Source: Winogradskyella schleiferi
GTDB lineage: Bacteria > Bacteroidota > Bacteroidia > Flavobacteriales > Flavobacteriaceae
NCBI RefSeq assembly: GCF_013394655.1
Contig: NZ_CP053351.1
Span: forward strand, 2,138,501 to 2,202,500
Direction of reading: 5' to 3'
Length of the DNA stretch: 64,000 bases
The first letter of the stretch is position 1. Each line of letters begins with the position of its first letter. Positions 13,531 through 26,989 of this stretch are shown one piece after another. A program made the position numbers and the translations under genes. Below the pieces are notes generated by a model. That model had not been told where the DNA came from. It searched no databases and was given only the letters and a program-made list of their open reading frames with translations.

Positions 13531-14004
13531 TTAAATAAAGAGAATTTGAGCAGCTTCTTGATCTGCTCGATTATAAAAATCCCCTATTGTTAAAATACCG
13601 TCCAACTCATCGATTAGGTCTTCCTCATTTAAGTGAAACATATCTACGGCAAGTTTACAAGCCCAAAGTTTACAACCAGAATCCGAAAGGATTTCCAAAA
13701 ATTCACCGATTGGTGGCATATCTAATTTTTCCATTTCCTTTTTCATCATCTTAGTTGCAAGAGCTTCAACACCTGGCAAACCACCAAGCATCGTTGGTAT
13801 ATGCATTGCAGGATTACCCACAGTGGCGACATGCAAATGATCTAGTTTCTTTTTCTGTATGGCTTCTAATCCAAAGAAGGTAAAAAACACCTCAGATTCT
13901 ATGCCCTCCATTCGTGCGCCATTAGCCATTACAAAGGCTGCATAAACATTTTCTATGGTCGCTTTTGACAAAATAAAAAGCATCTTTTTTACTTTTGTAC
14001 CCAT
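13531..14004 (-). CDS. DsrE/DsrF/DrsH-like family protein
   Basis: The 157-residue product has the DsrE2-type fold (COG2210): LFILSKATIENVYAAFVMANGARMEG near the start and, later, GCKLWACKLAVDMF with two cysteines, one of which is the expected persulfide-carrying residue. Members take part in sulfur transfer between rhodanese, TusA/DsrE-type and DsrC proteins in the cytoplasm or at the membrane. The gene directly follows tusE/dsrC (30 bp apart), which supports a relay role. Confidence 0.85.
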   Translation of the reverse strand: MGTKVKKMLFILSKATIENVYAAFVMANGARMEGIESEVFFTFFGLEAIQKKKLDHLHVATVGNPAMHIPTMLGGLPGVEALATKMMKKEMEKLDMPPIGEFLEILSDSGCKLWACKLAVDMFHLNEEDLIDELDGILTIGDFYNRADQEAAQILFI

Positions 14005-14034: not shown

Positions 14035-14346
14035 TTATATACAACTTTTTGGTTTAGGAATACCCGCTATCAATGTTGATTTTTTTAGGGGTCCACCAGG
14101 AAATAGATGATAAAATTCTTTAATATTTATAACACCACTTTTCTTAATACCTCTAATAGATAATGGCTCTTCCTTATGATGTTTATCCTGCAGATATTCA
14201 ACAACTTCCCAGTGTTTTTCCGTCATAACTATATCACATTCATCCGCAATACATTCACAGACTTCACGATCCCACTGTTTAAAATCTATTAAGTAGCCTT
14301 CTTCATTAACATCTATTTCTCTTTTGGCAATTATTTTTTTCATCAT
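14035..14346 (-). CDS. TusE/DsrC/DsvC family sulfur relay protein
   Basis: The 103-residue protein matches the DsrC/TusE fold: EEGYLIDFKQWDREV at the start, a helical core with EKHWEVVEYLQD, then FPGGPLKKSTLIAGIPKPKSC at the end. The penultimate Cys102, the persulfide carrier, is present. The second cysteine that true DsrC has about ten residues earlier is replaced (Ser/Thr at that site), so it looks more like a TusE-type carrier than the dissimilatory DsrC. It lies between the SQR-like gene (17 bp) and dsrE (30 bp). Confidence 0.9.
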   Translation of the reverse strand: MMKKIIAKREIDVNEEGYLIDFKQWDREVCECIADECDIVMTEKHWEVVEYLQDKHHKEEPLSIRGIKKSGVINIKEFYHLFPGGPLKKSTLIAGIPKPKSCI

Positions 14347-14363: not shown

Positions 14364-15614
14364 TTATTTATTATCAGTTTTTATATCGAATATTTTTCCT
14401 TTGAAACTCATGTTTCTTCCTACAAATGGAATTGATATACCTCTCAACAACATATTCCAATAGATCCATCTAAATGCTAATTTTCCCCAATGATTAAATA
14501 TGCTTTCTTTTAATAATTTTAGAGGACCTATTTTTGCAAAGGGAAATGTGCCATGCACTGGTTCTTGTTCGTAATTAAAGTCTATCAATAAGGCTTTATT
14601 TTCGCCTGTTTCAATAAAACAATTAGCATGACCATCAAACTCTTGTTTTAATTTAAATCCTTTTGTATATAAAATGATATTATCCGTTAATGTTTCTGCT
14701 TGGAAATGCGCTACAGAACCTGCCTTAGAAGCTGGTACATTGGTGGCATCACCTATAACGAAAATATTATCATGTGCCTTGCATTGCAACGTGTGTTTAT
14801 GTGTTGGTATAAAATTTAAATCATCACCCAATCCTGACCGCTCTATAGCTTCATCTCCCATATTTGTTGGTACAGTTACTAACAAATCAAATGGAATTTC
14901 TTTATCGATATAATCAACTATAGCTTTCTTTTTATTATCAACTTCCATTATTGCAAAATCCGTCTCTATCTTTATTTGTTTTTCTTCTAATAAGTAGTTT
15001 AGTGCTTTGGTACAGGTTGGCTTTGTAAATGCGCCATCTAAAGGTGTTACATAAGTGATTTCTACCTTATCTCTCATCCCTTTTTTCTTAAAATAAGAAT
15101 CTGCTAAAAATGCAAATTCTAAAGGTGCAACAGGACATTTTATTGGCATTTCAGTAATGTGCACTACTAATTTTCCACCTTCCCAATCTCTTAATTTATT
15201 GCGTAGTGCCAATGCACCTTCATAGGTATAAAAATCAAAAATATCCTTTCTCCATAATGGGCCACGTAAACCATCTGTTTCGTCTGGCGCAATTTTAGAC
15301 CCTGTTGCTACAATTAGGATATCATAGTCTAAAGTTTCGTCTTCCAATTTAACTTGGTTAGACTCAGGAAATATTCGATCTATTTTTTTCTGAATATAAT
15401 TGACACCATTGGGTATGAATTTCTTGCCTTCTTTTTTTACCTGATCTTCGGTATAAGTATCAAACGGTAAAAACAAAAAACCTGGTTGATAATAATGGGT
15501 TTTATATTGATCTACAATGGTAATTTGCCAATCTTTTTTTGGTAATTTATTGTCCAAATGATTGGCCATCATCGTTCCTGCGGTACCTGCGCCTAATATT
15601 AATAGATTTTTCAT
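14364..15614 (-). CDS. FAD/NAD(P)-dependent oxidoreductase, sulfide:quinone reductase-like
   Basis: The 416-residue flavoprotein starts with a dinucleotide-binding motif (ILGAGTAGTMMANHL), has ILIVATGSKIAPD and a second FAD-binding IFVIGDATNVPASKAGS. Cysteines in MPIKCPVAPLEF and KPTCTKAL are placed like the redox-active cysteines of sulfide:quinone oxidoreductases. The C-terminus has amphipathic/hydrophobic stretches (FRWIYWNMLLRG) for membrane binding. It would oxidise sulfide to sulfane sulfur with electrons going to quinone. It heads a three-gene unit with tusE and dsrE. A TGAT-N4-ATCA palindrome lies 83 bp upstream. Confidence 0.85.
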   Translation of the reverse strand: MKNLLILGAGTAGTMMANHLDNKLPKKDWQITIVDQYKTHYYQPGFLFLPFDTYTEDQVKKEGKKFIPNGVNYIQKKIDRIFPESNQVKLEDETLDYDILIVATGSKIAPDETDGLRGPLWRKDIFDFYTYEGALALRNKLRDWEGGKLVVHITEMPIKCPVAPLEFAFLADSYFKKKGMRDKVEITYVTPLDGAFTKPTCTKALNYLLEEKQIKIETDFAIMEVDNKKKAIVDYIDKEIPFDLLVTVPTNMGDEAIERSGLGDDLNFIPTHKHTLQCKAHDNIFVIGDATNVPASKAGSVAHFQAETLTDNIILYTKGFKLKQEFDGHANCFIETGENKALLIDFNYEQEPVHGTFPFAKIGPLKLLKESIFNHWGKLAFRWIYWNMLLRGISIPFVGRNMSFKGKIFDIKTDNK

Positions 15615-15696
15615 CTTCTAAATATTTAAGTTTACATTGCTGTAAACGCATTAACTTTCTCTTTATAAAGTTACTTTACTTACCCTAGAATTTACA

Positions 15697-15708
15697 TGAT
15701 TTTTATCA
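15697..15708. promoter_or_regulatory. FNR-like palindrome upstream of the SQR-like gene
   Basis: TGATTTTTATCA is a TGAT-N4-ATCA palindrome, the core of the classic FNR box, 83 bp upstream of the start at 15614. Similar sites precede other genes in 22-26 kb. Confidence 0.5.
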
Positions 15709-15827
15709 TAATCCTGTGTAGCAAATGTTACAGAAGAAAGCGCTGAAACACCTAATAATGGGAACGTATGGCGAAATGACCATGTGAAGTATTATAAGAA
15801 ATTAAGGGAAGTTATATCACCACTATT

Positions 15828-16037
15828 TTAACAGGTTTTGCAATCTCCACCCTCTTTTTTAATCCCTAATTTCACTAAAATTGTTTCTAACAAACACCAT
15901 TTAGTAAAAGCGGATTGAATTAAATTCAGTCCAATGAATACGGTAAACCACATCCAATTTGGATTGACATATACGGTTAACACAACGCTTAAAAGCACCA
16001 TAAAACCAACTATAACTCTAAAGTATGTATTTAACAT
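15828..16037 (-). CDS. DUF2892 (YgaP-like) inner-membrane protein
   Basis: From the ATG at 16037 the product has 69 residues; a longer reading from 16073 overlaps the upstream gene and adds an atypical start. Two membrane helices (YFRVIVGFMVLLSVVLTVYV and WFTVFIGLNLIQSAFTKWC) are followed by LLETILVKLGIKKEGG and a terminal C-K-T-C. DUF2892 domains are often fused or adjacent to rhodaneses and sulfur oxidation genes. The conserved N-P-N-W and F-T-K-W-C motifs are present. It lies in the sulfur/efflux run between the PII-like gene and the SQR gene. Confidence 0.85.
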   Translation of the reverse strand: MLNTYFRVIVGFMVLLSVVLTVYVNPNWMWFTVFIGLNLIQSAFTKWCLLETILVKLGIKKEGGDCKTC

Positions 16038-16056
16038 TTTAATTATTTTTTTAAGT

Positions 16057-16362
16057 TTATATAAATTTTTCAATAGGAACTACAATCGCTCTTACAGGAT
16101 TGTTAGTTTCTAAATTTGTATTGAATTCTTTTATGAGTTTGAATAAAGCGTCAATATTTTCATCTTCAGTAAAAGAGAAAAACAGTTCAGAATCTGCTCC
16201 GCTATTTTCACTAGCAAACCAATTGGAACTTTGTATTACAGATGCAGAAGTTTTAAAGCCCTCAATATCAGACTCACTGAAATTATTGATTTGAGCTTGT
16301 TTAAATAATTTGATAACATCCTTTTTGTAGTAATCAACTACTGTTACTATGACTAGTTTCAT
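16057..16362 (-). CDS. PII-like / DUF3240-type small protein
   Basis: The 101-residue product has the ferredoxin-like beta-alpha-beta pattern of PII-like proteins: a KLVIVTVVDYYKKDVIKLFKQA start, a loop rich in Ser/Asn/Glu, a strand ELFFSFTEDENIDALFKLIKEF and a final strand VRAIVVPIEKFI. It lies just downstream of the RND pump gene, as do small PII-like proteins (DUF3240) next to CusA-type pumps elsewhere. It may sense a ligand and adjust the pump. The family assignment is by pattern and context only. Confidence 0.6.
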   Translation of the reverse strand: MKLVIVTVVDYYKKDVIKLFKQAQINNFSESDIEGFKTSASVIQSSNWFASENSGADSELFFSFTEDENIDALFKLIKEFNTNLETNNPVRAIVVPIEKFI

Positions 16363-16383
16363 TATTTTTGGTTTTTATTTTAC

Positions 16384-16435
16384 AACCTGCAAGGTTCGTG
16401 TGCTGTACTTGTTTCAGTATCTAACCTTGTAGGTT
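16384..16435. repeat. Inverted repeat with AACCT(G/T)-type arms downstream of the RND gene
   Basis: AACCTGCAAGGTT (16384-16396) and AACCTTGTAGGTT (16423-16435) are reverse complements apart from one mismatch and each arm is itself nearly palindromic. On the plus side it runs into a T-rich stretch. It lies between the PII-like gene and the RND gene and looks like a dispersed short repeat that may also fold in mRNA. Confidence 0.55.
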
Positions 16436-16451
16436 TGTTTTTTGTTTTTAC

Positions 16452-16527
16452 ACCCCTAAAGTCCCCTCAAGGGGACAATCCACCTATTTGAATCCATCAA
16501 TTGTCCCCTTGAGGGGACTTTAGCGGT
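16452..16527. repeat. 27-bp inverted repeat, REP-like
   Basis: Two 27-bp arms (16452-16478 and 16501-16527) that read ACCCCTAAAGTCCCC... match with one mismatch and each arm contains a CCCCTCAAGGGG core. GC-rich hairpins of this sort in an AT-rich genome look like a repetitive extragenic palindrome. It sits within the pump operon and could reduce read-through to the PII-like gene. Confidence 0.65.
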
Positions 16528-16587
16528 ATTTTTTTTATATCTGTCAGATTTTATAAACATGACAGGAAAACTTTATTCAGCAAAAGA

Positions 16588-19500
16588 TTATTTATAATTC
16601 TTCTTCTCTATCATGTAATACACCAATGGTACTACTAACAAAGTCAACACCGTTGACACAATTGTTCCTCCCATTAATGAAATGGCCAAACCTTGGAAAA
16701 TTGGGTCAAACAGAATAACAAATGCGCCAATTACAACCGTTCCTGCTGTTAATAAAATAGGTGTTGTTCGCACTGCTCCTGCTTCAATGGCAGCTTGTTT
16801 TAGTGGTACACCGTCTGCTGTTCTTAAGTTGATAAAATCAATGAGCAATACTGAGTTTCTTACCATGATTCCTGCTAAAGCAATCATTCCGATAAACGAT
16901 GTTGCTGTAAAAAATGCTCCCATAAACCAATGTCCTAAAATAATTCCGATTAAGGATAATGGAATCGCAACCATCATTACTACTGGTGCTTTAAAGTTTT
17001 GGAACCAGCCGACAATTAAAATATAGATTAAGATGATAGCACCTAAAAAGGCAATTCCTAAATCTCTAAAGACTTCTAAGGTTATTTGCCATTCGCCATC
17101 CCATTTTACGGTGTAATCGTCCTCATATTCTGGTTGCCCCAAATACATCTCATTAATTTCATAACCTTGTGGTAGTGGAATCTCTTTCAATTTCTTTTCC
17201 ATTCCTAAAATCGCATACGCAGGACTCTCTAACTCTCCAGCCATATCTGCCATCACATAAACCACTCGTTTTTGATTTTTGTGATAAATGCTTTTTGCCG
17301 CTGTATTTTCAGAAATATTTACCAAATCTGAAATCGGTACCATATTGCCTTGTTTAGATTTTACTTTTAATTGAGAGATATCCGTAATTGTCGATTTTTC
17401 CTTTTCATCTAAAGCCAATACGACACCTATTTGGTTAACAGCGTCTTCATCATACAAATTGGTAATAGCTCTATTGGATAAAGCCATATTCATAGTGTAA
17501 GCTATTTGCTGTGGTGCAACACCATATAACATTGCCTTTTCTTTGTTAATATCAAACTGATATTCGGTTTGGTCGTCTTCTACCATCCAATCTATATCAA
17601 CGACATCATCTGTATGCCGCAATATCTCCTGAACATGATTTGCGACTCTAATTTGCTCATCATAGTCAGGTCCGTAAACTTCAGCAACAATAGTTGATAA
17701 TACTGGTGGTCCTGGTGGTACTTCTACCAATTTAACGTTGGCATTATACTTTGCAGCTATTTCTTGAATATCTGGACGTAATAATTTGGCGATATCATGA
17801 CTTTGAGCAGAACGGTCTTCTTTTGCTAATAAATTCACCTGAATATCTGCCATATTAGATCCACCACGTAAATCGTAATGTCGTACTAAACCATTAAACG
17901 TAATTGGTGCAGATGTTCCAACATAGTTTTGATAATTAACCACTTCTGGTCTGTTAGATAAGTATTGAGAAATCTCCTGAGCAACAACACCTGTTCGTTC
18001 TAGAGTTGTACCTTCTGGCATATCAATCACCACCTGAAATTCGTTTTTATTATCAAAAGGCAGCATTTTTACAGCAACCGAATTTGTAAAAAACAGTGCC
18101 ATTGTTCCCAATAATACCGCAAAGGTCCCTAATAAAAACAACCATCGCTTTCCTTTACTTTCTAAAAGTGGTCGTTCAAACTTATTGTATATTCTGTAAA
18201 TAAGCGTATCCTCAACGGCCTTTTCAGGCTTGTCTTCTTCTCCTTTCCCGCTTTCGGAACGGGCAGACTTGTCTTTCTCCCTTAGAAAAATATAACCCAA
18301 ATATGGTGTAATCGTTAAGGCTACAAATAAGGATAAAATCATGGCAATAGACGCTCCAATTGGCATTGGTGCCATATATGGTCCCATTAATCCAGAAACA
18401 AAAGCCATTGGTAATACCGAAGCAATTACCGTAAAGGTTGCTAAAATGGTCGGGTTTCCAACTTCGTTAATCGCATACAAAGCCGCTTGTTTAAAAGGCA
18501 AGCGTTTCATTTTGAAATGCCTATGCATATTTTCGGCAATAATAATAGAGTCATCGACGACAATACCAGTAACAAATACTAACGCGAATAAGGTGATTCG
18601 GTTTAGCGTATAATCCATCATGTAATAACTCAACAACGTTAATGCAAACGTAATTGGTACGGATAAAAACACCACTAAGCCACCTCTCCAACCCATAGCA
18701 AGCATCACTACAATGGTTACTGCAATGATAGAGCCAATTAGGTGTAACAACAATTCTGACACTTTATGAGACGCTGTTTCTCCATAGTTTCTTGTGATTT
18801 CTACATGAACATCATCAGGAATTAAAGTCGAACGCAAATGGTCAACCTTATCAATAATAACTTCTGCGATTTTCATAGCATCTGCGCCTTTTCTTTTCGC
18901 TACAGAAATGGTAACCGCAGGATATTCAGATTTATATTCCGCAGATTTTTCCGCACCTTTTCCAAACCCTAAGCTCACATAGTTTTGTGGTACTTCAGGT
19001 CCATCAATAATCTTAGCCACTTGCTTTAAGTAAATCGGTTGATTTTGTTGTACTCCAACGACCAGGTTTTCAACATCTGTAACTGATTCTAAAAATTTCC
19101 CAGTATTCACTAAAAATTCAGTATCGTTTTTATCAAAACTTCCAGCACTTAATTGGCTGTTATTTGCTTTAATCATTTCAGAAACTGACAAGAAGTCCAA
19201 TCCACTGGCTGCCAATTTATCTTTATCTAAAATCACACGTAATTGACGGTCTCTTCCACCTATTTTATGAGTAATAGCAACATCATTTACCTTTTTAATT
19301 TCGGCTTCCAATTCTTGAGCTATTTGGTTTAATTGGTAATCGTCATAATTCTCGCTCCACAAGGTTAAACCTAACATAGGCACATCATCAATAGCACGTG
19401 TTTTCACTAATGGAAACGTAACTCCAGCTGGCATTTGGTCCATGTGTTTATTAATTTCGTTGTACATTTTTACAAACGAACGCTCAATATCTTCGCCCAC

Positions 19501-19803
19501 ATAAAACTGCACGATGACCATGCCTTGCTCTTTCATAGACGTCGAATACACGTATTCCACACCTTTAATATTCGAAATTAATTGCTCTAACGGCTTAATC
19601 ACTCGCGATTCTACTTCCGTAGGACTTGCTCCAGGATAACCCACAAAAATGTCTGCCATTGGCACGTCAATTTGTGGCTCTTCCTCACGTGGAATTAAAA
19701 ACGAACTATATACACCAACCACCATAAATACAATCATTAACAACACGGTTAACTTAGATTGCATAAACACTTTGGCAATTTTTCCTGCGATACCTTCTTT
19801 CAT
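16588..19803 (-). CDS. RND-family efflux permease (AcrB/CusA superfamily)
   Basis: The 1071-residue inner-membrane pump has twelve predicted helices with the two large periplasmic loops of RND permeases. Helix 1 (LTVLLMIVFMVVGVYSSFL) follows a short N-terminus. Helix 4 carries GIVVDDSIIIAENM, with the two adjacent Asp residues of proton-relay helices in hydrophobe/amphiphile exporters rather than the metal-specific form. A charged linker (SARSESGKGEEDKPEK) separates helices 6 and 7. It exports substrates with the adaptor and TolC encoded just upstream (19939-22390). The sulfur genes downstream suggest a link to sulfide or redox stress, but the substrate is unknown. Confidence 0.93.
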   Translation of the reverse strand: MKEGIAGKIAKVFMQSKLTVLLMIVFMVVGVYSSFLIPREEEPQIDVPMADIFVGYPGASPTEVESRVIKPLEQLISNIKGVEYVYSTSMKEQGMVIVQFYVGEDIERSFVKMYNEINKHMDQMPAGVTFPLVKTRAIDDVPMLGLTLWSENYDDYQLNQIAQELEAEIKKVNDVAITHKIGGRDRQLRVILDKDKLAASGLDFLSVSEMIKANNSQLSAGSFDKNDTEFLVNTGKFLESVTDVENLVVGVQQNQPIYLKQVAKIIDGPEVPQNYVSLGFGKGAEKSAEYKSEYPAVTISVAKRKGADAMKIAEVIIDKVDHLRSTLIPDDVHVEITRNYGETASHKVSELLLHLIGSIIAVTIVVMLAMGWRGGLVVFLSVPITFALTLLSYYMMDYTLNRITLFALVFVTGIVVDDSIIIAENMHRHFKMKRLPFKQAALYAINEVGNPTILATFTVIASVLPMAFVSGLMGPYMAPMPIGASIAMILSLFVALTITPYLGYIFLREKDKSARSESGKGEEDKPEKAVEDTLIYRIYNKFERPLLESKGKRWLFLLGTFAVLLGTMALFFTNSVAVKMLPFDNKNEFQVVIDMPEGTTLERTGVVAQEISQYLSNRPEVVNYQNYVGTSAPITFNGLVRHYDLRGGSNMADIQVNLLAKEDRSAQSHDIAKLLRPDIQEIAAKYNANVKLVEVPPGPPVLSTIVAEVYGPDYDEQIRVANHVQEILRHTDDVVDIDWMVEDDQTEYQFDINKEKAMLYGVAPQQIAYTMNMALSNRAITNLYDEDAVNQIGVVLALDEKEKSTITDISQLKVKSKQGNMVPISDLVNISENTAAKSIYHKNQKRVVYVMADMAGELESPAYAILGMEKKLKEIPLPQGYEINEMYLGQPEYEDDYTVKWDGEWQITLEVFRDLGIAFLGAIILIYILIVGWFQNFKAPVVMMVAIPLSLIGIILGHWFMGAFFTATSFIGMIALAGIMVRNSVLLIDFINLRTADGVPLKQAAIEAGAVRTTPILLTAGTVVIGAFVILFDPIFQGLAISLMGGTIVSTVLTLLVVPLVYYMIEKKNYK

Positions 19804-19906
19804 ATCCTATCCCTAACCCTCTCCTAAGGAAAGGGAACTATTACGGGTTCTTTTTTAGTTATTATTTATTTTAAATACCTACCAGGCTTTTGAAACCTCG
19901 TGAGAA

Positions 19907-19951
19907 ACTGATGACTGCGACTGTTTACTGAATACTGTTTACTGCACACTG
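19907..19951. repeat. ACTG array on a 7-bp phase at the 3' end of the adaptor gene
   Basis: ACTG begins at 19907, 19914, 19920, 19927, 19934, 19941 and 19948, a 7-bp step with one 6-bp exception. The array overlaps the stop codon of the adaptor gene (TTA on this strand at 19939-19941). It is a diverged relative of the ACTGAAC heptamer array at 7359-7416. Confidence 0.6.
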
Positions 19952-21018
19952 ATTTTAGCTCCATTGTAAAGTTTTCCTTCAGCAGAAACGATATAAGCTT
20001 CATCTGTATTTAAACCAGATAAAACTTCTACTTGGTCGCCAAACGTTCTACCTAAACGTAACCAACGCAATAAAGCTGTGTTACTCTGACTTACCGTATA
20101 AACTCCAGATAATTGACCGTTGGTAACAATCGCTTCACTTGGAATTAAAACCATTTCCGATTTTGCTTTTCTTTCCACAGGAAATTGAACTGTTGTAAAC
20201 ATTCCTGATAAGATGTTAGCCTCTGTTTTGTCTAAATCGATTTTTACTAAATATTGTCCACCTGTATTTTTTGCAGATGTACTTACTTCAGCTACTTTTC
20301 CTTTTAAAGTTTGATTAATAGATTTTACTAAAACATCAACCGTAGAACCTCTTTCAATTTCAGAAATTTCAGATTCAGGTACCATTGCCATCACTTCAAA
20401 ATTTTCTGGTGTCTCCATACTAATTAATGGCTCTCCTGGATTTGCCATATTTCCCGCCTCTACATTTTTACTTGTAATGGTTCCGCTAAATGGTGCCGTA
20501 ATATTACTATAAGTGAATTGTGCGTTAATTTCGTTTTTCATTTGATTTGCCGATTCCAATCGTGCTTTTGCCATTTCAAAATTAGCCGTCATATCATCCA
20601 TTTCTTTTTGAGAGGCACTATTCTCAGCAAATAAATTTTTGAAACGATTATAATCTTTTTGTGCATTGTTAAAAGCAGCTGTTGCTTCATTAATTCCTGC
20701 ATTTACTTGTGCGCGTTTGGCTTGTAAATCAGCATTATTAATAGAAACCAATAATTGACCTTTACGTACTTTGTCTCCAACATTAACATGCACTTTATTA
20801 ACATAACCCATCATTCTCGTACTTAAATCCGCACTATTCACAGCCTGAATTTTTCCGCTTACAGCCAAAAACGGACTGTTAGTATTGGTTTCCACCTGAC
20901 TCGTTTTTACTGTAATTGCTGGTGAATTATCTTCAACGGCGTTTTTGTCTTCGCCTCCGCAACTCGTAAATAACAAGGCTAAAGAAAATGCTACTATGGT
21001 ATATATTTTTTTATTCAT
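19939..21018 (-). CDS. RND efflux periplasmic adaptor (membrane fusion protein), lipoprotein
   Basis: The 359-residue protein is a HlyD/AcrA-type adaptor. The signal ends in the lipobox LFTSC (Cys20). A lipoyl-like half (GYVNKVHVNVGDKVRKGQLL), a coiled hairpin (residues about 95-155) with ITAPFSGTI on the return strand, and beta-barrel segments with FEVMAMVPESEISEI follow. It links the RND permease to TolC in the periplasm. It lies between tolC (64 bp) and the pump (135 bp). Its final codons are made of an ACTG repeat. Confidence 0.93.
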   Translation of the reverse strand: MNKKIYTIVAFSLALLFTSCGGEDKNAVEDNSPAITVKTSQVETNTNSPFLAVSGKIQAVNSADLSTRMMGYVNKVHVNVGDKVRKGQLLVSINNADLQAKRAQVNAGINEATAAFNNAQKDYNRFKNLFAENSASQKEMDDMTANFEMAKARLESANQMKNEINAQFTYSNITAPFSGTITSKNVEAGNMANPGEPLISMETPENFEVMAMVPESEISEIERGSTVDVLVKSINQTLKGKVAEVSTSAKNTGGQYLVKIDLDKTEANILSGMFTTVQFPVERKAKSEMVLIPSEAIVTNGQLSGVYTVSQSNTALLRWLRLGRTFGDQVEVLSGLNTDEAYIVSAEGKLYNGAKISVQ

Positions 21019-21082
21019 TTTATGTCTTTTTTTAGTTAGATTATTAGTCTTTACTCTTGGTTCATTTATCTTGTTTCTCTTT

Positions 21083-22390
21083 TTATTCTTTTGTTAAAAA
21101 CTGTAAATATGCTTGTGCGTAATTGTATTCAAAAATGGTTTGGTAATATTCTAATTGCTTTTGTGCGTATTGCGTTTCAGCAATTAACAAATCGGATGTT
21201 TTTTCCAATCCTTCCTTAAATCTATTCGTTCTTATTCTTAGTGATTCTTCAGATTGTTCTAAGGCTAATGAATTTAACTTTAGTTTGTTTTCAGCATCAA
21301 TAAAAGCACGTTTTGCTTTGTTTAATTCTAAATTGCTTTGCGAAACGTATTGTTTGTATTCTAATTTCGATTGTTCATATTCAGCTTTACTTTTTTGCGC
21401 TTTTCCAAAACGTTTAGAGCCTTGAAAAATATCCCAACTTAATTGTGCGCCAAATAAATACCCATTGGCATCAGCTTGAAAAATTTGATCATCATACAAC
21501 TCATAACTACCGAAAGCGTTCAATCGAGGTAAGAATGTCATTTTATCAGCTTTATTCATGGCTTTATAGGCATTGGATGCTAATTCCATCGCTTTAATAT
21601 CTGATCGGTTTTCTGAAATTGTTTTGTCTTCCATTTCAAAAGTTGAAACCGTTAATTCATCTGTTGGTGTGTAGATCACGTACTTTTCATCATTCATTAA
21701 AAATGATAGATAATTAGAGGCATTTTGCACATTACTTTTTGCGGTTTGTAATTGATTTTGAACTTCAGTAACGCGCACTTCAACATTCAACACGTCGGCA
21801 CGTTGCAAATACCCTTGTTTGAAACTATTATCTGCTAATCTTTTATTGGCATTGGCTGCTTCTAATGCTGTTTCTAAAACATCAACAGCTTTATACGCCA
21901 ATTGTAATTGCATATAGGCTTTGTCAACTTCAAACGCTAAATAATCTTGAGTGCGTTCGGTCTTTAAAGACATGGCTTCCATTTTAGATTTGGCAGCCTT
22001 ACGTTGGTACATGCCATCAAAATTGAGTAATGGTTGTTGAATTTCAAACTTTGTTGCGTAATTTTCAATCTGCGAAGGATCGTTTAATAATGCAGGATTG
22101 AAATCATTTTGCGTTAAAATCTCCTGGTTCAATTTAGACCCAAACGCCATCAATGGATTTGTAGTTGCTATAGCAGTATGACTTGCTGTGATGTTTGGCA
22201 GGAATACCGCATTGGTTTGCCTGTAATCTGCTCTGGCTTGATTGAATTCTTCTTCTGAAATTTTAAGGCTTGTATTTTTCTCAGTAACCTTAGTTTGTAC
22301 TTCTATTTTAGATATTGGAACAAGTTCTTGTGCTTTCACAACAAATACAAAAGCCAAAAATCCTAATGTTATATAAATATGCTTTTTCAT
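21083..22390 (-). CDS. TolC family outer-membrane efflux protein
   Basis: The 435-residue protein has a signal peptide (1-20, ending VVKAQ) and the two repeated long coiled-coil halves of outer-membrane efflux proteins, for example near 120-215 (KSKMEAMSLKTERTQDYLAF) and 320-430 with QAYLQFL at the end. It forms the trimeric outer-membrane duct for the pump encoded downstream. It follows the DUF4405 gene by 24 bp. A GTAAC-N4-GTTAC palindrome in the end of that gene lies 50 bp before this start, so the efflux genes may have their own promoter. Confidence 0.92.
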   Translation of the reverse strand: MKKHIYITLGFLAFVFVVKAQELVPISKIEVQTKVTEKNTSLKISEEEFNQARADYRQTNAVFLPNITASHTAIATTNPLMAFGSKLNQEILTQNDFNPALLNDPSQIENYATKFEIQQPLLNFDGMYQRKAAKSKMEAMSLKTERTQDYLAFEVDKAYMQLQLAYKAVDVLETALEAANANKRLADNSFKQGYLQRADVLNVEVRVTEVQNQLQTAKSNVQNASNYLSFLMNDEKYVIYTPTDELTVSTFEMEDKTISENRSDIKAMELASNAYKAMNKADKMTFLPRLNAFGSYELYDDQIFQADANGYLFGAQLSWDIFQGSKRFGKAQKSKAEYEQSKLEYKQYVSQSNLELNKAKRAFIDAENKLKLNSLALEQSEESLRIRTNRFKEGLEKTSDLLIAETQYAQKQLEYYQTIFEYNYAQAYLQFLTKE

Positions 22391-22414
22391 TAATTTTCAA
22401 TTTATGGTGCAAAC

Positions 22415-22873
22415 TTAGTTGAAAGTTGAAGTGATGTTTGTAACCAATGTTACTTGGCGTTCGTTTTTATGATTAGCTATTCTAATTTCAGGTTTTAGAA
22501 ATAATGGAATGAGAATTAATAAAGCACATAGGATTGCAAAACCAACTGCTATAATTCTTTTAGTCAATTTCACTTTTATAATTTTTTGATAAACGGCGAC
22601 AACGACTTTCCAGTGCAAAAGAATATGTAATACCAATAAACCAACCAAAATAAAACTCAATACAAGATGAACCGTTCCCCATTGATGTCTATCTAATCCT
22701 AAAAAATAAAGTTCTACGTTTTTTCCATAAACTTCCTTTCGATCCTGACCGGATAAAAGTGTATACTTCATTAGAAAACCAATACCAACAATTGCAGACA
22801 TAAATAATGTCATGGTTGCATTTAGTATAAAATTCCAGAAGGATTTCCGTTTTGCTTTGACAGACTTTTTCAT
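22415..22873 (-). CDS. DUF4405 membrane protein (possible cytochrome b-like)
   Basis: The 152-residue product has three to four membrane helices. The central one carries histidines in the pattern HQWGTVHLVLSFILVGLLVLH-I-L-L-H-W, like the heme-binding helices of DUF4405/cytochrome b561-type proteins. It starts with a very basic N-terminus and ends in a soluble tail. Function is unknown; a role in electron transfer at the membrane fits its place before the TolC/RND genes and near other redox proteins. A TGAT-N4-ATCA box is 59 bp upstream. Confidence 0.8.
   Translation of the reverse strand: MKKSVKAKRKSFWNFILNATMTLFMSAIVGIGFLMKYTLLSGQDRKEVYGKNVELYFLGLDRHQWGTVHLVLSFILVGLLVLHILLHWKVVVAVYQKIIKVKLTKRIIAVGFAILCALLILIPLFLKPEIRIANHKNERQVTLVTNITSTFN
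22440..22453. promoter_or_regulatory. GTAAC-N4-GTTAC palindrome 50 bp upstream of tolC
   Basis: GTAACCAATGTTAC lies inside the last codons of the DUF4405 gene, 50 bp before the TolC start. The same palindrome type occurs before DUF2202 and the cytochrome gene at similar distances, which argues for an operator within a coding region. Confidence 0.4.
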
Positions 22874-22931
22874 TGTATAAACACGTTTTTGACTTGTAAT
22901 TAAAGGTATTTACAATACAAAAATGCTACAA

Positions 22932-22943
22932 TGATATTCATCA
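22932..22943. promoter_or_regulatory. FNR-like palindrome upstream of the DUF4405 gene
   Basis: TGATATTCATCA (TGAT-N4-ATCA) sits 59 bp before the start codon at 22873, at the same distance as the site before the small gene at 24412. Confidence 0.5.
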
Positions 22944-23013
22944 GATAATTTATAAGAATAAGCCTAAAAAAACCACAAAAAAAAGAGCGCTTCAGAAATA
23001 TTTTAATCACGGT

Positions 23014-23643
23014 TTAATTACATTGTTCTTGATCACCGGTAATAATTAAATCGAATTCTTCTTGAGAAAGAAACTGAGGTGCATAAGTGTTGCCACTATT
23101 TTCAATGCCATTAATAAAGCTTCGTAAATGATTTCTAGAACCACACTGTAGGTTTTCAAATACAGCAATTAAATCCTCATTTTCACTAGCATCTAAATAT
23201 TCTTGTAAATCTTTGATATCTAAATCTTCTATTGTTGCTCCTATTTCCAAAGCACTAGCCACACTAAAAGCGCCATCGATTTCAAATTGATCATATAGAT
23301 TTTGAAGGTTTTGGTTTTCAAATTCGCCAATGGGCTGTATGGCATATTCGATATTGTTCTGAATCAATAAATTTTCGACTAAATTCATATGTGCTTGCTC
23401 ACTGTTTTTAATATTGGCAAACTGATTTATAGACCATAAATCATTTAAATAGGTATAAGTATCTCTGGCTAATTTTTCTTCTTCGAGCATAAATAACAAA
23501 GCAGCTTTATCATCTTCTAATAGAGTTTGGTTTGTTGGGTCAACATTAAAATCGTCATTATCATCGCTGCAAGAGGAAAAAATGACGACTGAAAAGACTA
23601 AAATTAATATAGGTATGACGCGGAACACTACTGGCTTTTTCAT
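23014..23643 (-). CDS. DUF2202 ferritin-like lipoprotein
   Basis: The 209-residue protein has a lipoprotein signal (ILIFSVV-type core ending FSSC near residue 25) and an acidic linker, then the DUF2202 helical domain: LLFMLEEEKLARDTYTYL, then NSEQAHMNLVENLL and a C-terminal CGSRNHLRSFING. Glutamate and histidine residues in E-x-x-x-A-R-D-x-Y and E-Q-x-H-M match a ferritin-like di-iron site. It would be exported and membrane-anchored. Function is not settled. A GTAAC-N4-GTTAC box lies 55 bp upstream, consistent with redox control. Confidence 0.85.
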   Translation of the reverse strand: MKKPVVFRVIPILILVFSVVIFSSCSDDNDDFNVDPTNQTLLEDDKAALLFMLEEEKLARDTYTYLNDLWSINQFANIKNSEQAHMNLVENLLIQNNIEYAIQPIGEFENQNLQNLYDQFEIDGAFSVASALEIGATIEDLDIKDLQEYLDASENEDLIAVFENLQCGSRNHLRSFINGIENSGNTYAPQFLSQEEFDLIITGDQEQCN

Positions 23644-23697
23644 TTTCTTAAAATTTAGATTTATTAATAAATTTAGACAATAAATAGAAGACTATCA

Positions 23698-23711
23698 GTA
23701 ACTTATGTTAC
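23698..23711. promoter_or_regulatory. GTAAC-N4-GTTAC palindrome upstream of the DUF2202 gene
   Basis: GTAACTTATGTTAC is a perfect palindromic frame, 55 bp before the start at 23643. The identical 14-mer occurs at 25929-25942 before the cytochrome gene. Confidence 0.6.
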
Positions 23712-23713
23712 AT

Positions 23714-23749
23714 AAAAAAGGCACTTATAAATACTTATAAATGCCTTTT
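23714..23749 (-). terminator. Terminator behind the 33-codon ORF
   Basis: AAAAGGCACTTATAA (23716-23730) pairs with TTATAAATGCCTTTT (23735-23749) with one mismatch and a 4-base loop. On the minus strand the stem is followed by a T run (A run at 23714-23719 on the plus strand). It closes the small transcript from 23880 leftward. Confidence 0.7.
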
Positions 23750-23778
23750 CACTAACCAACCAAAAACTGACAACCACA

Positions 23779-23880
23779 TCAGTTTACTTTTCTCGAGCCT
23801 CCATGTCCTCCAGCAACAACAAGCATTATTTTTATACTCAAATAAATGAACTTGAAAAACTGAATGATCAGATTCATCAT
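23779..23880 (-). CDS. 33-residue small membrane peptide gene
   Basis: The ORF reads MMNLIIQFFKFIYLSIKIML followed by VVAGGHGGSRKVN and TGA: one hydrophobic helix and a glycine/histidine/basic tail. It is short and unmatched to any family I know. Three facts support it: an FNR-like box (23930-23941) 50 bp upstream, a second palindrome (24009-24022) further up, and a terminator starting 30 bp after its stop. An alternative is that the transcript is a small RNA and the ORF is accidental. Confidence 0.45.
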   Translation of the reverse strand: MMNLIIQFFKFIYLSIKIMLVVAGGHGGSRKVN

Positions 23881-23929
23881 TTTAAATCTTTAATATTTTG
23901 AAATTAGGTTATTAAACAAGTTTTTGAAA

Positions 23930-23941
23930 TGATATTAATCA
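23930..23941. promoter_or_regulatory. FNR-like palindrome upstream of the 33-codon ORF
   Basis: TGATATTAATCA (TGAT-N4-ATCA, self-complementary through its spacer ATTA/TAAT apart from the centre) ends 50 bp before the ATG at 23880, the spacing seen for the other boxes. Confidence 0.5.
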
Positions 23942-24008
23942 CTTCAAAATTCCGAATAAACTGATTAAAGACTTACTGTAAAGATGTTTATTTTCAACGA
24001 AAGCCATT

Positions 24009-24022
24009 GTAACTTTTGTTAC
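24009..24022. promoter_or_regulatory. Distal GTAAC-N4-GTTAC palindrome
   Basis: GTAACTTTTGTTAC lies 129 bp upstream of the 33-codon ORF and 68 bp upstream of the nearer box. It may be a second regulator site for the same small transcript. Nothing else is visible between it and the terminator at 24182. Confidence 0.45.
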
Positions 24023-24181
24023 CAGAACAAGTTAGAAACATAACAAAATTAGTTTTGAATGGCTTATTCATATTACATTTTAAAACAAAACTAAAATCAA
24101 GCTGATTTTGGAAGAAAACCCATTATGTATCCTGGCAGAAATTTTTCAGCATTTTTACCATTTAAATTTTAGACCTATTAC

Positions 24182-24219
24182 AAAAAAAGAGGGTAGTTAA
24201 TTATTGACTACCCTCTTTT
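24182..24219 (-). terminator. Strong terminator behind the 56-residue membrane protein gene
   Basis: AAAAGAGGGTAGT (24185-24197) and ACTACCCTCTTTT (24207-24219) form a perfect 13-bp stem with a 9-base loop. Read leftward it ends in a run of seven T. It starts 22 bp after the stop of the gene at 24242. Confidence 0.85.
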
Positions 24220-24241
24220 CAAATATATAATTAAGTTTTAA

Positions 24242-24412
24242 TTAATACTCTGTGTTATTGTCTTCATTAAGTTTGTTAGACTCTTCCGTGCTTTTACCTT
24301 TAGACATAAAATTAATTAGTATGCCTACCAATGTAATACAAACCAATGCGAAAATCACAATCATTACCACGCCATTGGTCCAACTATATAATGCTATTAA
24401 TGAATTAATCAT
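24242..24412 (-). CDS. 56-residue single-pass membrane protein
   Basis: The product starts MINSLIALYSWTNGVVMIVI and continues through a hydrophobic helix to about residue 35, then has a hydrophilic tail (MSKGKSTEESNKLNEDNNTEY). It has its own terminator and a TGAC-N4-GTCA box 59 bp upstream of the ATG, so it is a separate transcription unit. Size and layout recall the small membrane subunits of respiratory or transport complexes, but no family is recognised. Confidence 0.65.
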   Translation of the reverse strand: MINSLIALYSWTNGVVMIVIFALVCITLVGILINFMSKGKSTEESNKLNEDNNTEY

Positions 24413-24470
24413 ATTTAGGTTGATTTAGTTTTGATAGGGTAAAATTAAGAACTATAATTTTTTAGAAAGA

Positions 24471-24482
24471 TGACATTTGTCA
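24471..24482. promoter_or_regulatory. FNR/Crp-like palindrome upstream of the 56-residue protein gene
   Basis: TGACATTTGTCA (TGAC-N4-GTCA) is a perfect palindromic frame 59 bp before the start at 24412. It differs from the other TGAT-N4-ATCA sites only in the last base of each half. Confidence 0.5.
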
Positions 24483-24539
24483 GTAATTACAAAAATATTC
24501 CTATTAATTTTTCTAAATGCCTGAATGATTAGACCATTT

Positions 24540-24833
24540 TTAAGCATTGTTTATAATATTTATAAGCTCTTCTTTTTGAAGAACGCCAGACTGCCTCCAT
24601 ACTTGTTTGCCATTTTTAAACAACAACATGGTTGGTACTCCTCTTACTTGATATTTTGACGCTAATGCTTGATTTTTATCCACATCTATTTTTATAATAG
24701 ACACACGTTCACCCAAACTATCCTTCACTTGTTTTAAAATTGGAGCTAACATTTTGCACGGCCCACACCAGTCTGCAAAAAAATCCACTAAAACGGGTTC
24801 ATCTTGGTTTATTAATTCTGAAAATTTACTCAT
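24540..24833 (-). CDS. trxA: Thioredoxin
   Basis: The 97-residue protein has the active site W-C-G-P-C (residues 22-26) in VLVDFFADWCGPCKMLAPIL, the cis-proline strand GVPTMLLFKNGK and the final helix. It is a full-length cytoplasmic thioredoxin without a signal peptide. It starts 14 bp after the cytochrome gene ends, so the two are probably one operon controlled by the palindrome at 25929. It could reduce persulfides or protein disulfides during the stress that induces the neighbours. Confidence 0.95.
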   Translation of the reverse strand: MSKFSELINQDEPVLVDFFADWCGPCKMLAPILKQVKDSLGERVSIIKIDVDKNQALASKYQVRGVPTMLLFKNGKQVWRQSGVLQKEELINIINNA

Positions 24834-24847
24834 ACCTGACTTAATTT

Positions 24848-25882
24848 TTATTTATCGAAAGTGATACTCCAAATACCTCTTACTTCATTAACATCATAGC
24901 CAATGGCTTTATCCATAGGATATAAACTCCTTATTTTTGCTAATGTAGAATTTTCCAAAGTTTCATTTGGTTTTCCGTGGCATTGAAGACACATGGTATT
25001 CGTCGTAATCGGGTAATATACCCTTACGTTATCATCCGTTTCTTTTACGATCGGAGTTGCTTCTTCACTATTTGCCACCACTTTTTTAAAGGTTTTTATA
25101 TACTCTAATTCTTCTGTATTTGCTTTATTATTCGGGTTTCTCGGCTTATCCGATACACGTTTGATAGTAGCATTATGCACAACAGCCATACTATCGGTTA
25201 AAGGATAAGCACGCTCATTACAAAATGCCAAGGCTTCTAAAGTTCCTTTCTTTTGAATCGTTTCCATTAAGTTTTTGCCTAAAACAGCTTTTGTCGTTAG
25301 TGCATACTTTAGACCACGTTCTCCATATGGTAAATCCTGCAAATTAGTTTGGGCTTGCTGGTTTTGCATTCTTTTTCCATTACCCATTCTATTTCCTTTT
25401 CCCTTTTCTTTCCCATTTCCCATACCTTGACCATTACCTCTCTCTTTATTAAAATGTGCTTCAAACCATTCAGGTTGTTCAATTTCGAAATCGTACATAT
25501 ACTCAGAAATTTGGGCAATGGTTTCCTCAGGAAAGGCTTGTTTCGGCATCACTCCAAATCGTTTTACAGCTCCAAACATTCTCGCGTCTTCTTCATTTGG
25601 GTTTTTAATCCATGCTTGCATAGATGCTATAAATTCTTCTTTTGTAGTATTATCATTTTTATAATGCTTTTTAATAGCAATCATAGGAGGACCAATTCTA
25701 ATATCCTCAGTAGCCGTTGGACTATGACAGATGTAACAATTGGTTTCCATTAACTTTTTTCCTGGATGGTTAGATGCTTTAGAAGATTTATCTACAGAAC
25801 TATAAGCATCATTGTTTTTTTTGCCGGAATTACAACTCATTAAAATCATCACTAAAACGAGCAATCCTATACCTTTTTTCAT
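24848..25882 (-). CDS. Lipoprotein with an N-terminal cytochrome c and a C-terminal DUF3365 heme domain
   Basis: From the ATG at 25882 (MKKGIGLLVLVMILMSC) the product is a lipoprotein with the lipid Cys in the motif LMSC. A longer reading from 25909 adds nine residues without family support. The first domain has a C-Y-I-C-H heme site and a distal Met region (GVMPKQAF). A linker rich in Gly, Asn, Lys and Met (about residues 150-180) follows. The second domain (DUF3365, Tll0287-like) contains C-L-Q-C-H. Two hemes c are thus expected in the periplasm. It is followed by trxA. Confidence 0.85.
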   Translation of the reverse strand: MKKGIGLLVLVMILMSCNSGKKNNDAYSSVDKSSKASNHPGKKLMETNCYICHSPTATEDIRIGPPMIAIKKHYKNDNTTKEEFIASMQAWIKNPNEEDARMFGAVKRFGVMPKQAFPEETIAQISEYMYDFEIEQPEWFEAHFNKERGNGQGMGNGKEKGKGNRMGNGKRMQNQQAQTNLQDLPYGERGLKYALTTKAVLGKNLMETIQKKGTLEALAFCNERAYPLTDSMAVVHNATIKRVSDKPRNPNNKANTEELEYIKTFKKVVANSEEATPIVKETDDNVRVYYPITTNTMCLQCHGKPNETLENSTLAKIRSLYPMDKAIGYDVNEVRGIWSITFDK

Positions 25883-25928
25883 CTCAAATATATTTGAATA
25901 AAAGTACAACCATTTAGGTTTTTGTTAC

Positions 25929-25942
25929 GTAACTTATGTTAC
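25929..25942. promoter_or_regulatory. GTAAC-N4-GTTAC palindrome between the cytochrome gene and the YdjM-like gene
   Basis: GTAACTTATGTTAC, identical to the box at 23698, lies 46 bp before the cytochrome start at 25882 and 48 bp before the divergent start at 25991. It could serve either or both genes. Confidence 0.6.
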
Positions 25943-25990
25943 AATCCACAATGGTGAACATCAAAGAAAAACGTATTTTTACTACCAAAT

Positions 25991-26989
25991 ATGGATTCAC
26001 TCACACAAATCGTTTTAGGCGCAGCCGTTGGCGAAGCAGTTTTAGGCAAAAAAGTTGGTAACAAAGCCATTTTATATGGTGCTATTGCTGGTACCATTCC
26101 AGATTTGGATGTCTTTGCATCTCATTTTACAGACACCGTTTCGGCTTTGGCGATTCATCGTGGCTTTACGCATTCCATTGTATTTTCTGTACTCTTCGCT
26201 CCTATCTTTGGGTGGCTCGTTTCACGCTACGAAACCTATAAGGATTTTAAAGGTTGGTCTTGGCTATTTTTCTGGGCTTTTTTAACACATCCCATTTTAG
26301 ATGCACACACCACTTGGGGAACACAACTATTTTGGCCTTTGGATTTAAGACTGGCATTTAAAACTATTTTCGTTGTTGACCCCTTATACACATTACCTTT
26401 TTTAGTGTGCCTGATTTTGACACTATTTCAAAAACGATCTTCGAAAAAAAGACGATTTTATAATAATTTAGGTCTAACAGTAAGTACTCTATATTTAGGA
26501 CTGACTTTTATTTTGAAAAACGTTGCTTCATCTCAATTTGAAGACGCATTACTAAATCAAAATATAGCATACAACGAATTGGACACCAGACCTTCGCCGC
26601 TTAACACTATTTTATGGAATGCAAATGTGGAAACTAAAAGCGCCTATTTATTAGGCACTTATTCATTTTTTGATAGTAAAGAAATTAGCTTTGAGAGGTA
26701 TCCTAAAAATCATGAGTTACTGGGAAGTCTCATTGAAAATGAGAACGTAAAACGTATGATTAAAATTTCAGAAGGTTGGTTTACCATAACCAAAACAGAC
26801 GATAAATTGTACTATAACGATTTACGTTTTGGATTATTGAATTTAGAACCCAATTCCCAAGACTTTGTATTTAAATATGAAATTGAAGTTGATGACTCTG
26901 GCCATGTCATATTTACCGAACAAGAAAAAAACCAGCGCGACGGTAAAAAACTGATATCGAGTCTATGGAAACGCCTAAAGGGAAACTGA
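25991..26989 (+). CDS. Membrane-bound metal-dependent hydrolase (YdjM/LexA-binding-type)
   Basis: The 332-residue protein starts MDSLTQIVLGAAVGEAVLGK, the signature of the YdjM family, followed by IPDLDVF and HRGFTHSIVFS with the metal-binding His/Asp residues. Four to five membrane helices lie between residues 60 and 175. The C-terminal half is soluble. The fold is related to phospholipase-type zinc hydrolases. Function is unclear. It shares an intergenic region and a palindrome with the cytochrome gene and is convergent with the phospholipase gene (11 bp apart). Confidence 0.85.
   Translation: MDSLTQIVLGAAVGEAVLGKKVGNKAILYGAIAGTIPDLDVFASHFTDTVSALAIHRGFTHSIVFSVLFAPIFGWLVSRYETYKDFKGWSWLFFWAFLTHPILDAHTTWGTQLFWPLDLRLAFKTIFVVDPLYTLPFLVCLILTLFQKRSSKKRRFYNNLGLTVSTLYLGLTFILKNVASSQFEDALLNQNIAYNELDTRPSPLNTILWNANVETKSAYLLGTYSFFDSKEISFERYPKNHELLGSLIENENVKRMIKISEGWFTITKTDDKLYYNDLRFGLLNLEPNSQDFVFKYEIEVDDSGHVIFTEQEKNQRDGKKLISSLWKRLKGN

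Follow-up and report, generated by a model that had tools for sequence, protein, structure and literature searches.

Two classes of conserved palindromes and a candidate Crp/Fnr-type sulfide-defence regulon in Winogradskyella schleiferi

A 64,000-nt stretch of the Winogradskyella schleiferi genome (assembly GCF_013394655.1, contig NZ_CP053351.1, positions 2,138,501 to 2,202,500; hereafter the window) carries on its minus strand a gene island in which two kinds of palindrome, GTAAC-N4-GTTAC and TGAY-N4-RTCA, recur upstream of genes (Table 1). Along that strand, the haem protein (its start taken as the ATG at 25882 in preference to the listed TTG at 25909) and thioredoxin are followed by a TGAC site with a 56-amino-acid (aa) protein, a GTAAC and a TGAT site with a 33-aa microprotein, a GTAAC site with DUF2202, a TGAT site with DUF4405, and a GTAAC site with TolC, the membrane fusion protein, the RND permease, a 101-aa protein and a YgaP-type membrane protein; a TGAT site then precedes the type III sulfide:quinone reductase (SQR), DsrC, DsrE and DUF4870. 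Judged by their protein families, SQR would oxidize sulfide into the quinone pool, persulfide would be handed on to DsrE/DsrC and rhodanese, the products would be exported, and haem proteins and thioredoxin would handle electrons and thiols. Very probably, the palindromes are genuine regulatory switches belonging to two distinct kinds. The explanation we favor, with a probability of about 0.78, is a sulfide/persulfide-defence regulon in which a Crp/Fnr activator that most likely senses through its cysteines acts at the GTAAC sites and a second, FNR-like regulator at the TGAY sites.

Table 1 Features of the gene island and the two regulator genes (window positions unless marked as genome positions).
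Feature	Coordinates	Strand	Basis or associated element
DsrE-like protein	13531-14004	-	Pfam
DsrC/TusE-like protein	14035-14346	-	Pfam, TIGR03342
Type III SQR	14364-15614	-	Pfam; NF049943, 652 bits (cut-off 525)
TGAT-N4-ATCA, site of type III SQR	15697-15708	-	-7 TAACTTTA at 15666-15673
RND efflux pump	16588-21018	-	Pfam; AcrB-type permease 16588-19803, membrane fusion protein 19939-21018
TolC-type outer membrane efflux protein	21083-22390	-	Pfam
DUF4405 protein	22415-22873	-	Pfam
GTAAC-N4-GTTAC, predicted operator of tolC	22440-22453	-	-7 TAAGTTTG at 22410-22417
TGAT-N4-ATCA, site of DUF4405	22932-22943	-	-7 TACCTTTA at 22901-22908
DUF2202 protein	23014-23643	-	Pfam
GTAAC-N4-GTTAC, predicted operator of DUF2202 gene	23698-23711	-	-7 TAAATTTA at 23668-23675
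33-aa conserved microprotein	23779-23880 (stop included)	-	
TGAT-N4-ATCA, site of microprotein	23930-23941	-	-7 TAATTTCA at 23899-23906
GTAAC-N4-GTTAC, distal site before microprotein	24009-24022	-	Weaker -7 CATCTTTA at 23979-23986; weakest of the four
56-aa conserved protein, membrane-type by sequence	24242-24412	-	Orthologues in related loci; Pfam search gave no family
TGAC-N4-GTCA, site of 56-aa membrane protein	24471-24482	-	-7 TAATTTTA at 24440-24447
Thioredoxin	24540-24833	-	Pfam
c-type cytochrome (Cytochrom_C) with Tll0287-like domain (haem protein), 344 aa	24848-25882	-	Pfam
GTAAC-N4-GTTAC, predicted operator of haem protein	25929-25942	-	-7 TACTTTTA at 25899-25906
Candidate GTAAC regulator (L014), 211 aa, recognition helix SRVVISR	genome 3240232-3240867		Crp/Fnr family
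Paralogous Crp/Fnr regulator (L013 type), helix REV[VI][ST]R	genome 1362084-1362707		

We recovered all eight palindromes that an earlier note on this DNA had listed; seven lie 46-82 bp from an ATG, in agreement with that note, and the eighth (24009) lies 128 bp ahead of the 33-codon open reading frame (ORF), which is the microprotein. The notion that the motifs exceed background density held for GTAAC-N4-GTTAC, with 4 copies in the window against 0.05 expected (0 of 100 shuffles reached 4) and 8 in the 4.56-Mb genome, 4 of these inside a 3.5-kb part of this island; it failed for the number of TGAY-N4-RTCA copies (7 against 4.8 expected, a count reached by 24 of 100 shuffles). On the minus strand, the octamer starting exactly 29.5 nt downstream of the palindrome centre reads TANNTTTR at six of the eight sites and departs from it by one core mismatch, at the same spacing, at the remaining two. 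Three TGAY palindromes elsewhere in the window have no such -7 element at that spacing in either direction. At a background rate of 0.0024 per site and gap, six of eight corresponds to p ~5e-15, a value to be multiplied by ~60 (gaps and orientations) because the gap was discovered on these same sites.

Class II activators of the Crp/Fnr family bind sites centred about 41 nt (near -41.5) before the transcription start, and the spacing seen here fits that geometry relative to the expected start. Between the palindrome and the -7 element no column is conserved (≤0.2 bits), and hence no separate -33 element is seen. This combination is the usual layout of a class II activator and speaks against a repressor bound at the same sites, which we consider quite improbable even if a protein at -41.5 could in principle block RNA polymerase. 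A further point against repression comes from PMC2483708, which describes a -7 element, TAnnTTTG, with TTTG at -33 for Bacteroides fragilis, finds it in Flavobacterium promoters, and reports that full activity in flavobacteria requires the -33 element. That the palindromes might instead be RNA hairpins (attenuators or terminators) or mobile repeats is hardly credible: they are inverted repeats lying mostly in AT-rich intergenic DNA (the 22440 site sits within the 3′ end of the DUF4405 ORF, upstream of tolC), but their 4-nt loops vary, their spacing from the -7 element is constant to the nucleotide, no Rfam match falls within 15000-26500, and, because they lie upstream of the -7 element, they would not be transcribed from that promoter. 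Ahead of the haem protein, a third half-site (GTAAC) immediately follows the palindrome on the minus strand (25924-25942, GTAACATAAGTTACGTAAC).

Searching named genomes with the haem protein returned 112 relatives, and we kept the best 80 (80 loci, 1.56 Mb; closest relative Winogradskyella litoriviva, 84%). These loci contain 200 GTAAC-N4-GTTAC palindromes, compared to 5, 0 and 0 copies of three scrambled versions; in 157 cases TANNTTT follows at a gap of 23 nt (gap 23), where 39 other gaps give a mean of 2.9 and a maximum of 17, and the TGAY type peaks at the same gap (70, against a mean of 2.5 and a maximum of 7 at other gaps). At least one GTAAC site with a -7 element occurs in 68 of the 80 loci. 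The motifs also recur upstream of orthologues, a comparison that the earlier note had proposed. Ahead of the haem protein, an exact palindrome with an exact -7 element stands at gap 23 in 24 of 80 loci and at gap 22 in two more, with weaker versions in 12 and nothing within 350 nt in 42, in many of which the haem-protein gene is placed behind other genes of the cluster. DUF2202 has an exact site with -7 upstream in 4 of 10 loci, our own included (an attempt at footprinting in a same-genus genome, G368, found no DUF2202 match there), and a TGAY site with -7 lies ahead of the only orthologue of the type III SQR encountered among the named loci (L214). The enrichment of GTAAC, together with the fixed -7 spacing in the window and in the 80 related loci, speaks strongly against a chance origin of the window sites.

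An ORF stands behind 155 of the 157 GTAAC sites and 67 of the 70 TGAY sites in these loci, and the two sets of targets differ. GTAAC sites precede TolC (25), the haem protein (24), peroxiredoxin (21), rhodanese (20), metallo-beta-lactamase/rhodanese proteins resembling persulfide dioxygenase (17), TauE (14), SQR-like proteins (10), DUF2202, SulP and cytochrome bd (3 each) and smaller groups; TGAY sites precede the 56-aa protein (17), a protein of ~125 aa (16), Usp (6), peroxiredoxin (5), SQR-like proteins (4), persulfide dioxygenase-like proteins (3) and others. TolC, haem-protein and rhodanese genes together have 69 GTAAC and 0 TGAY sites, and the 56-aa, 125-aa and Usp genes have 0 and 39 (p ~3e-30, relatedness ignored), so that the two palindrome classes very probably mark two regulons. 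Some genes seem to have changed hands, since peroxiredoxin (21/5), persulfide dioxygenase (17/3) and SQR (10/4) are mixed. These mixed families, and the TRAY core and distance to the -7 element that both palindromes have in common, are what a single FNR-type oxygen regulator binding both as variants of TRAY-N4-RTYA would explain; it is very improbable given that six gene families hold to one class across genera and that each of two recognition-helix types has a matching operator after its regulator gene (see below). The earlier note had proposed one or two Crp/Fnr regulators, a proposal supported by the class II spacing and the recurrence before orthologues, and two fit better than one in view of the target separation and the covariation of helix and operator. 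The ~125-131-aa gene behind TGAY sites in 16 named loci (e.g., L174:19654-20046, minus strand) belongs to no family found by Pfam.

The genome was searched for Crp/Fnr-family genes with the HTH_Crp_2 profile, which matched at seven places, all outside the window; six were over the cut-off, and the seventh is an ArsR-type protein. The GTAAC sites are likely read by the Crp/Fnr protein encoded at 3240232-3240867, which combines a Crp-type helix-turn-helix (PF13545, 44 bits, cut-off 27) with a cyclic nucleotide (cNMP)-type barrel (PF00027, 36 bits, cut-off 27.5). Its AlphaFold model (mean pLDDT 82) retrieves CRP, NtcA and FNR in Foldseek, with an uncertain domain orientation because TM-scores are mostly 0.5-0.6. 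Downstream of its gene lie genes for two Sulf_transp proteins, TauE, a metallo-beta-lactamase/rhodanese protein, a YgaP-like membrane protein and an HMA protein. Matches at E 1e-25 occur in up to 125 of 149 genomes of the family, an upper bound because paralogues are included. In 23 of 30 loci, the first 150 bp behind the regulator gene contain a GTAAC-type site with -7 (up to 2 mismatches of 10 allowed), and the gene shares a cluster with the haem protein in 21 of the 80 named loci, all 21 of which have GTAAC sites. Twenty genomes with the regulator, hand-picked among the high-scoring of the up to 125, hold 122 palindromes in 70.8 Mb, compared to 31 in 43.3 Mb for 20 genomes without it, those listed of 24 (p ~2e-6; base counts rounded). 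Beyond the family, matches at 1e-40 were found in 94 of 296 genomes of the phylum, and among 28 loci from that search the key helix residue was V in 25 and E in 3, with an exact GTAAC site and -7 in 10 and not in 18.

A paralogous regulator provides an internal comparison. We searched the DNA after both types of regulator gene for any 5-4-5 dyad with a -7 element, leaving the letters free. Behind the GTAAC regulator, GTAAC-like sites emerged in 15 of 30 loci and GTGAC-N4-GTCAC in none (of the remainder, 2 were unparsed, 11 gave nothing, and unrelated dyads turned up in 2, in one case next to a GTAAC-like site); behind the paralogue, matched at 1e-45 in 14 of 149 family genomes, a perfect GTGAC-N4-GTCAC emerged in 9 of 14 loci and an imperfect one in 1, the rest giving nothing or being unparsed. 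In W. schleiferi itself, GTGAC-N4-GTCAC precedes the gene next to the paralogue, which encodes a YgaP-like membrane protein. The two form a natural pair in which one helix residue, V in the GTAAC regulator and E in the paralogue, tracks one operator base pair, A.T or G.C. This residue corresponds to Glu181 of Escherichia coli CRP, which makes a specific base contact (PMC12531629), and the tracking agrees with a 2005 report that, across the Crp/Fnr family, residues 180 and 181 correlate with operator bases (PMC1274295).

Outside the window we scanned 60 stretches of 20 kb of the same genome (1.2 Mb; 28% of the genome with the window included). Among 1138 oriented TRAY-N4-RTYA palindromes, TANNTTTR occurred 15 times at gap 23, compared to a mean of 2.7 at 30 other gaps (10 to 40). 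The genes behind gap-23 TGAY sites include formate-tetrahydrofolate ligase, a radical-SAM protein (whose first residues suggest hemN), FixS and three Usp proteins, targets that liken these TGAT-N4-ATCA sites to those of E. coli FNR and point to an FNR-like regulon; sites among the 15 with no gene behind may be chance. A candidate for the TGAY regulator (L009) has PRK11161.1 as its best NCBIfam model, at 77.3 bits vs the FNR cut-off of 228, and an N-terminal CxxC is present. With the five stretches that had been chosen for holding Crp-type genes left aside, TGAY alone still gave 4 vs 0.47 at gap 23 (p 0.001). As for GTAAC, the palindrome at 3511491, 52 nt ahead of a 103-aa rhodanese gene, is accompanied by a near -7 element (GAATTTTG); those at 2952303, 3209315 and 3432808 lack a -7 element in both directions and probably arose by chance. 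A response-regulator receiver fused to a Crp/Fnr protein is encoded at 1740365-1743571, among Usp genes with TGAT sites.

Several of these results weigh against the two-regulator explanation and the assignment of the GTAAC regulator. In the own-genome scan, 9 of the 15 gap-23 cases fall in the five stretches chosen for Crp-type genes, without which the count is 6 vs 2.3 (p 0.03); the peak is carried by the TGAY type (13 of 15), the full TANNTTTR stands at gap 23 in none of 66 oriented TAAC-N4-GTTA sites in the 1.2 Mb, and among GTAAC sites outside the window the rhodanese site (GAATTTTG) alone comes close to a full -7 element. Of the 30 regulator loci, 6 have no site and 1 has its site at +857, and the site after the regulator gene in W. 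schleiferi is itself poor (GTCACTTTTGTAAC). Neither kind of site is seen in three subfamily members whose key residue is E, nor in six more distant V-type loci (L261, L262, L264-L267). No GTAAC site with -7 was found in 12 of the 80 named loci, and these were fetched with the haem protein as bait, so that the target counts favor this neighbourhood rather than whole genomes. The palindrome excess in genomes with the regulator amounts to 2.4-fold per Mb, and a backward control pattern is commoner than the real pattern in 30 of 40 genomes. A modest genome-wide excess is expected if most genome-wide palindromes are chance, and a bare count per genome is a weak test. Lastly, because the same motif was predicted for the nitrosative-stress regulator HcpR2 (PMC1274295), nitric oxide (NO) stays an alternative signal.

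That motif, GTAAC-N4-GTTAC, has been in print since 2005: PMC1274295 predicted GTAACnnnnGTTAC for HcpR2 of Clostridium, Bacteroides, Thermotogales and Treponema, hcp being its main target. The earlier note had named TGAT-N4-ATCA as the core of the FNR box; GTAAC-N4-GTTAC is the HcpR2-predicted motif and no FNR box. A GTAAC regulator of HcpR2 type would answer NO or nitrosative stress, with the sulfur genes as part of that response, and would account for the identical predicted operator (GTAACnnnnGTTAC), the Crp/Fnr family, the lack of FNR-type cysteines that HcpR proteins also show and the naming of position 181 as the determinant of the same base (PMC1274295). We regard it as rather unlikely. 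Among 70 orthologues position 181 is Val (67) or Glu (3), compared to Pro in HcpR2 (PMC1274295), the targets are sulfur genes, and hcp (PF03063), the core target of HcpR2, is absent from the W. schleiferi genome and from 148 of 149 family genomes, the remaining match being a 42-position end fragment (the same search matched in 5 of 14 control genomes). The main text of PMC1274295 has 0 mentions each of sulfide, persulfide, rhodanese and Flavobacter-. The regulator appears to work on an HcpR2-type operator, which by itself does not make it HcpR2.

The signal is suggested by the cysteines of the protein. In an alignment of 70 distinct orthologues (at least 40% identity), C78 (70/70), C84 (69/70) and C85 (68/70), within GDTCAMSLTCCM, are the only conserved cysteines, the GTAAC regulator itself has no others, no other column exceeds 30% Cys, and N-terminal iron-sulfur cysteines of FNR type were not found. 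From alignments to 3dv8 and NtcA, we take the cysteine stretch to occupy the place of the cyclic AMP (cAMP) cassette of CRP; the protein scores 51 bits with the CRP model (cut-off 266). Since AlphaFold confidence is lowest at this stretch (block means 59-72), we claim no geometry for the cysteines. Because they are nearly invariant, and given the target list and the three cysteines that the sulfane-sulfur activator FisR also uses (PMC9774590), the best guess is that the regulator senses persulfide or sulfane sulfur. The three cysteines could as well ligate a metal, an HMA protein is encoded in the regulator operon, and the targets include peroxiredoxin, thioredoxin neighbours, an RND pump and haem proteins; a correct assignment with the cysteines serving another signal (metal or haem binding, peroxide or general disulfide stress) is nevertheless unlikely, given that rhodanese, persulfide dioxygenase, SQR and TauE recur as targets, that sulfur-transport genes follow the regulator, and that FisR likewise has three cysteines (PMC9774590).

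Among solved structures, the closest by both sequence (4e-18) and Foldseek is 3dv8, a Crp/Fnr protein of Eubacterium rectale from structural genomics, with which two of the three cysteines align; its helix, HREVITR, differs, and its title calls it "putative". NtcA follows as the next-best sequence match (2xgx, 9.5e-10), and its STRVTVTR aligns with SRVVISR, with the same R-V pair. The NtcA box, GTA-N8-TAC, is contained in GTAAC-N4-GTTAC. The regulator departs from NtcA in its score (47.4 bits vs an equivalog cut-off of 244.95), its cysteine triad and its sulfur targets. FisR, SqrR/BigR and CstR resemble it in targets (SQR, persulfide dioxygenase, TauE, YeeE/YedE) and in the thiol sensing proposed for it (PMC7315123, PMC9774590), but belong to the sigma-54 activator, ArsR and CsoR families rather than to Crp/Fnr.

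On the favored explanation, the GTAAC regulator, common in flavobacteria, probably turns on sulfide defence, and a sulfide/persulfide-defence regulon would lie partly in the window. The computations show the sites, their fixed spacing and conservation, the separation of targets and the covariation of helix and operator; from these we infer that the regulators physically bind and activate, and which two signals they answer. The activator encoded at 3240232-3240867 would bind GTAAC-N4-GTTAC at about -41.5, contact RNA polymerase in class II fashion and turn on the haem-protein, DUF2202 and TolC promoters in the window and rhodanese elsewhere in the genome; in relatives it would also drive persulfide dioxygenase, peroxiredoxin, TauE, SQR, SulP and cytochrome bd. 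C78, C84 and C85 would most likely sense sulfane sulfur through persulfide or polysulfide links. TGAY-N4-RTCA, at the same position, would belong to a second, FNR-like regulator with a Glu-containing helix that couples SQR, DUF4405, the 56-aa protein and the microprotein to low oxygen, so that GTAAC would add a sulfane-sulfur signal and TGAY a low-oxygen signal. More tentatively, and at somewhat less than even odds, a persulfide sensor of Crp/Fnr fold, with a cysteine triad replacing the cAMP pocket, may have taken over an HcpR2-type operator and come to serve many Flavobacteriaceae and some related Bacteroidota as their main activator of sulfide defence, the role that FisR, SqrR/BigR and CstR play elsewhere. 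On this reading it would be superimposed on an FNR-like regulon of the same island, where there is also a microprotein usually found after an SQR-like flavoprotein.

A few families are known to contain sulfide-responsive regulators, and our literature search, which left most subscription literature outside, found none described for flavobacteria and no Crp/Fnr regulator of sulfide genes there. New here are the flavobacterial sulfur regulon, the promoter geometry and the regulator variant that combines Val with a cysteine triad; together they offer a directly testable set of regulator, operator, promoter layout and targets.

The microprotein (23779-23880) had tblastn matches in 19 loci besides the window, 16 of these among the 80 named. 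In relatives it has ~45 aa, ends in an IVAGGHGGTR-like C-terminus and follows a gene for a 485-486-aa flavoprotein recognised by Pyr_redox_2 and weak SQR-model matches alone; it stands after 16 of 16 complete genes of this kind (two more run off their loci) and after 0 of 14 other complete SQR-like genes. The window copy has no N-terminal extension like that of its relatives and is orphaned from the flavoprotein, of which the W. schleiferi genome holds no close relative (the type III SQR comes nearest, at 28% over 210 residues). A Pfam search with the microprotein gave no match. When 13 sequences were compared pairwise, the first, second and third codon positions differed 294, 82 and 1058 times, and codon changes were synonymous in 874 cases vs non-synonymous in 328, a pattern that marks the 33-codon ORF as a conserved protein.

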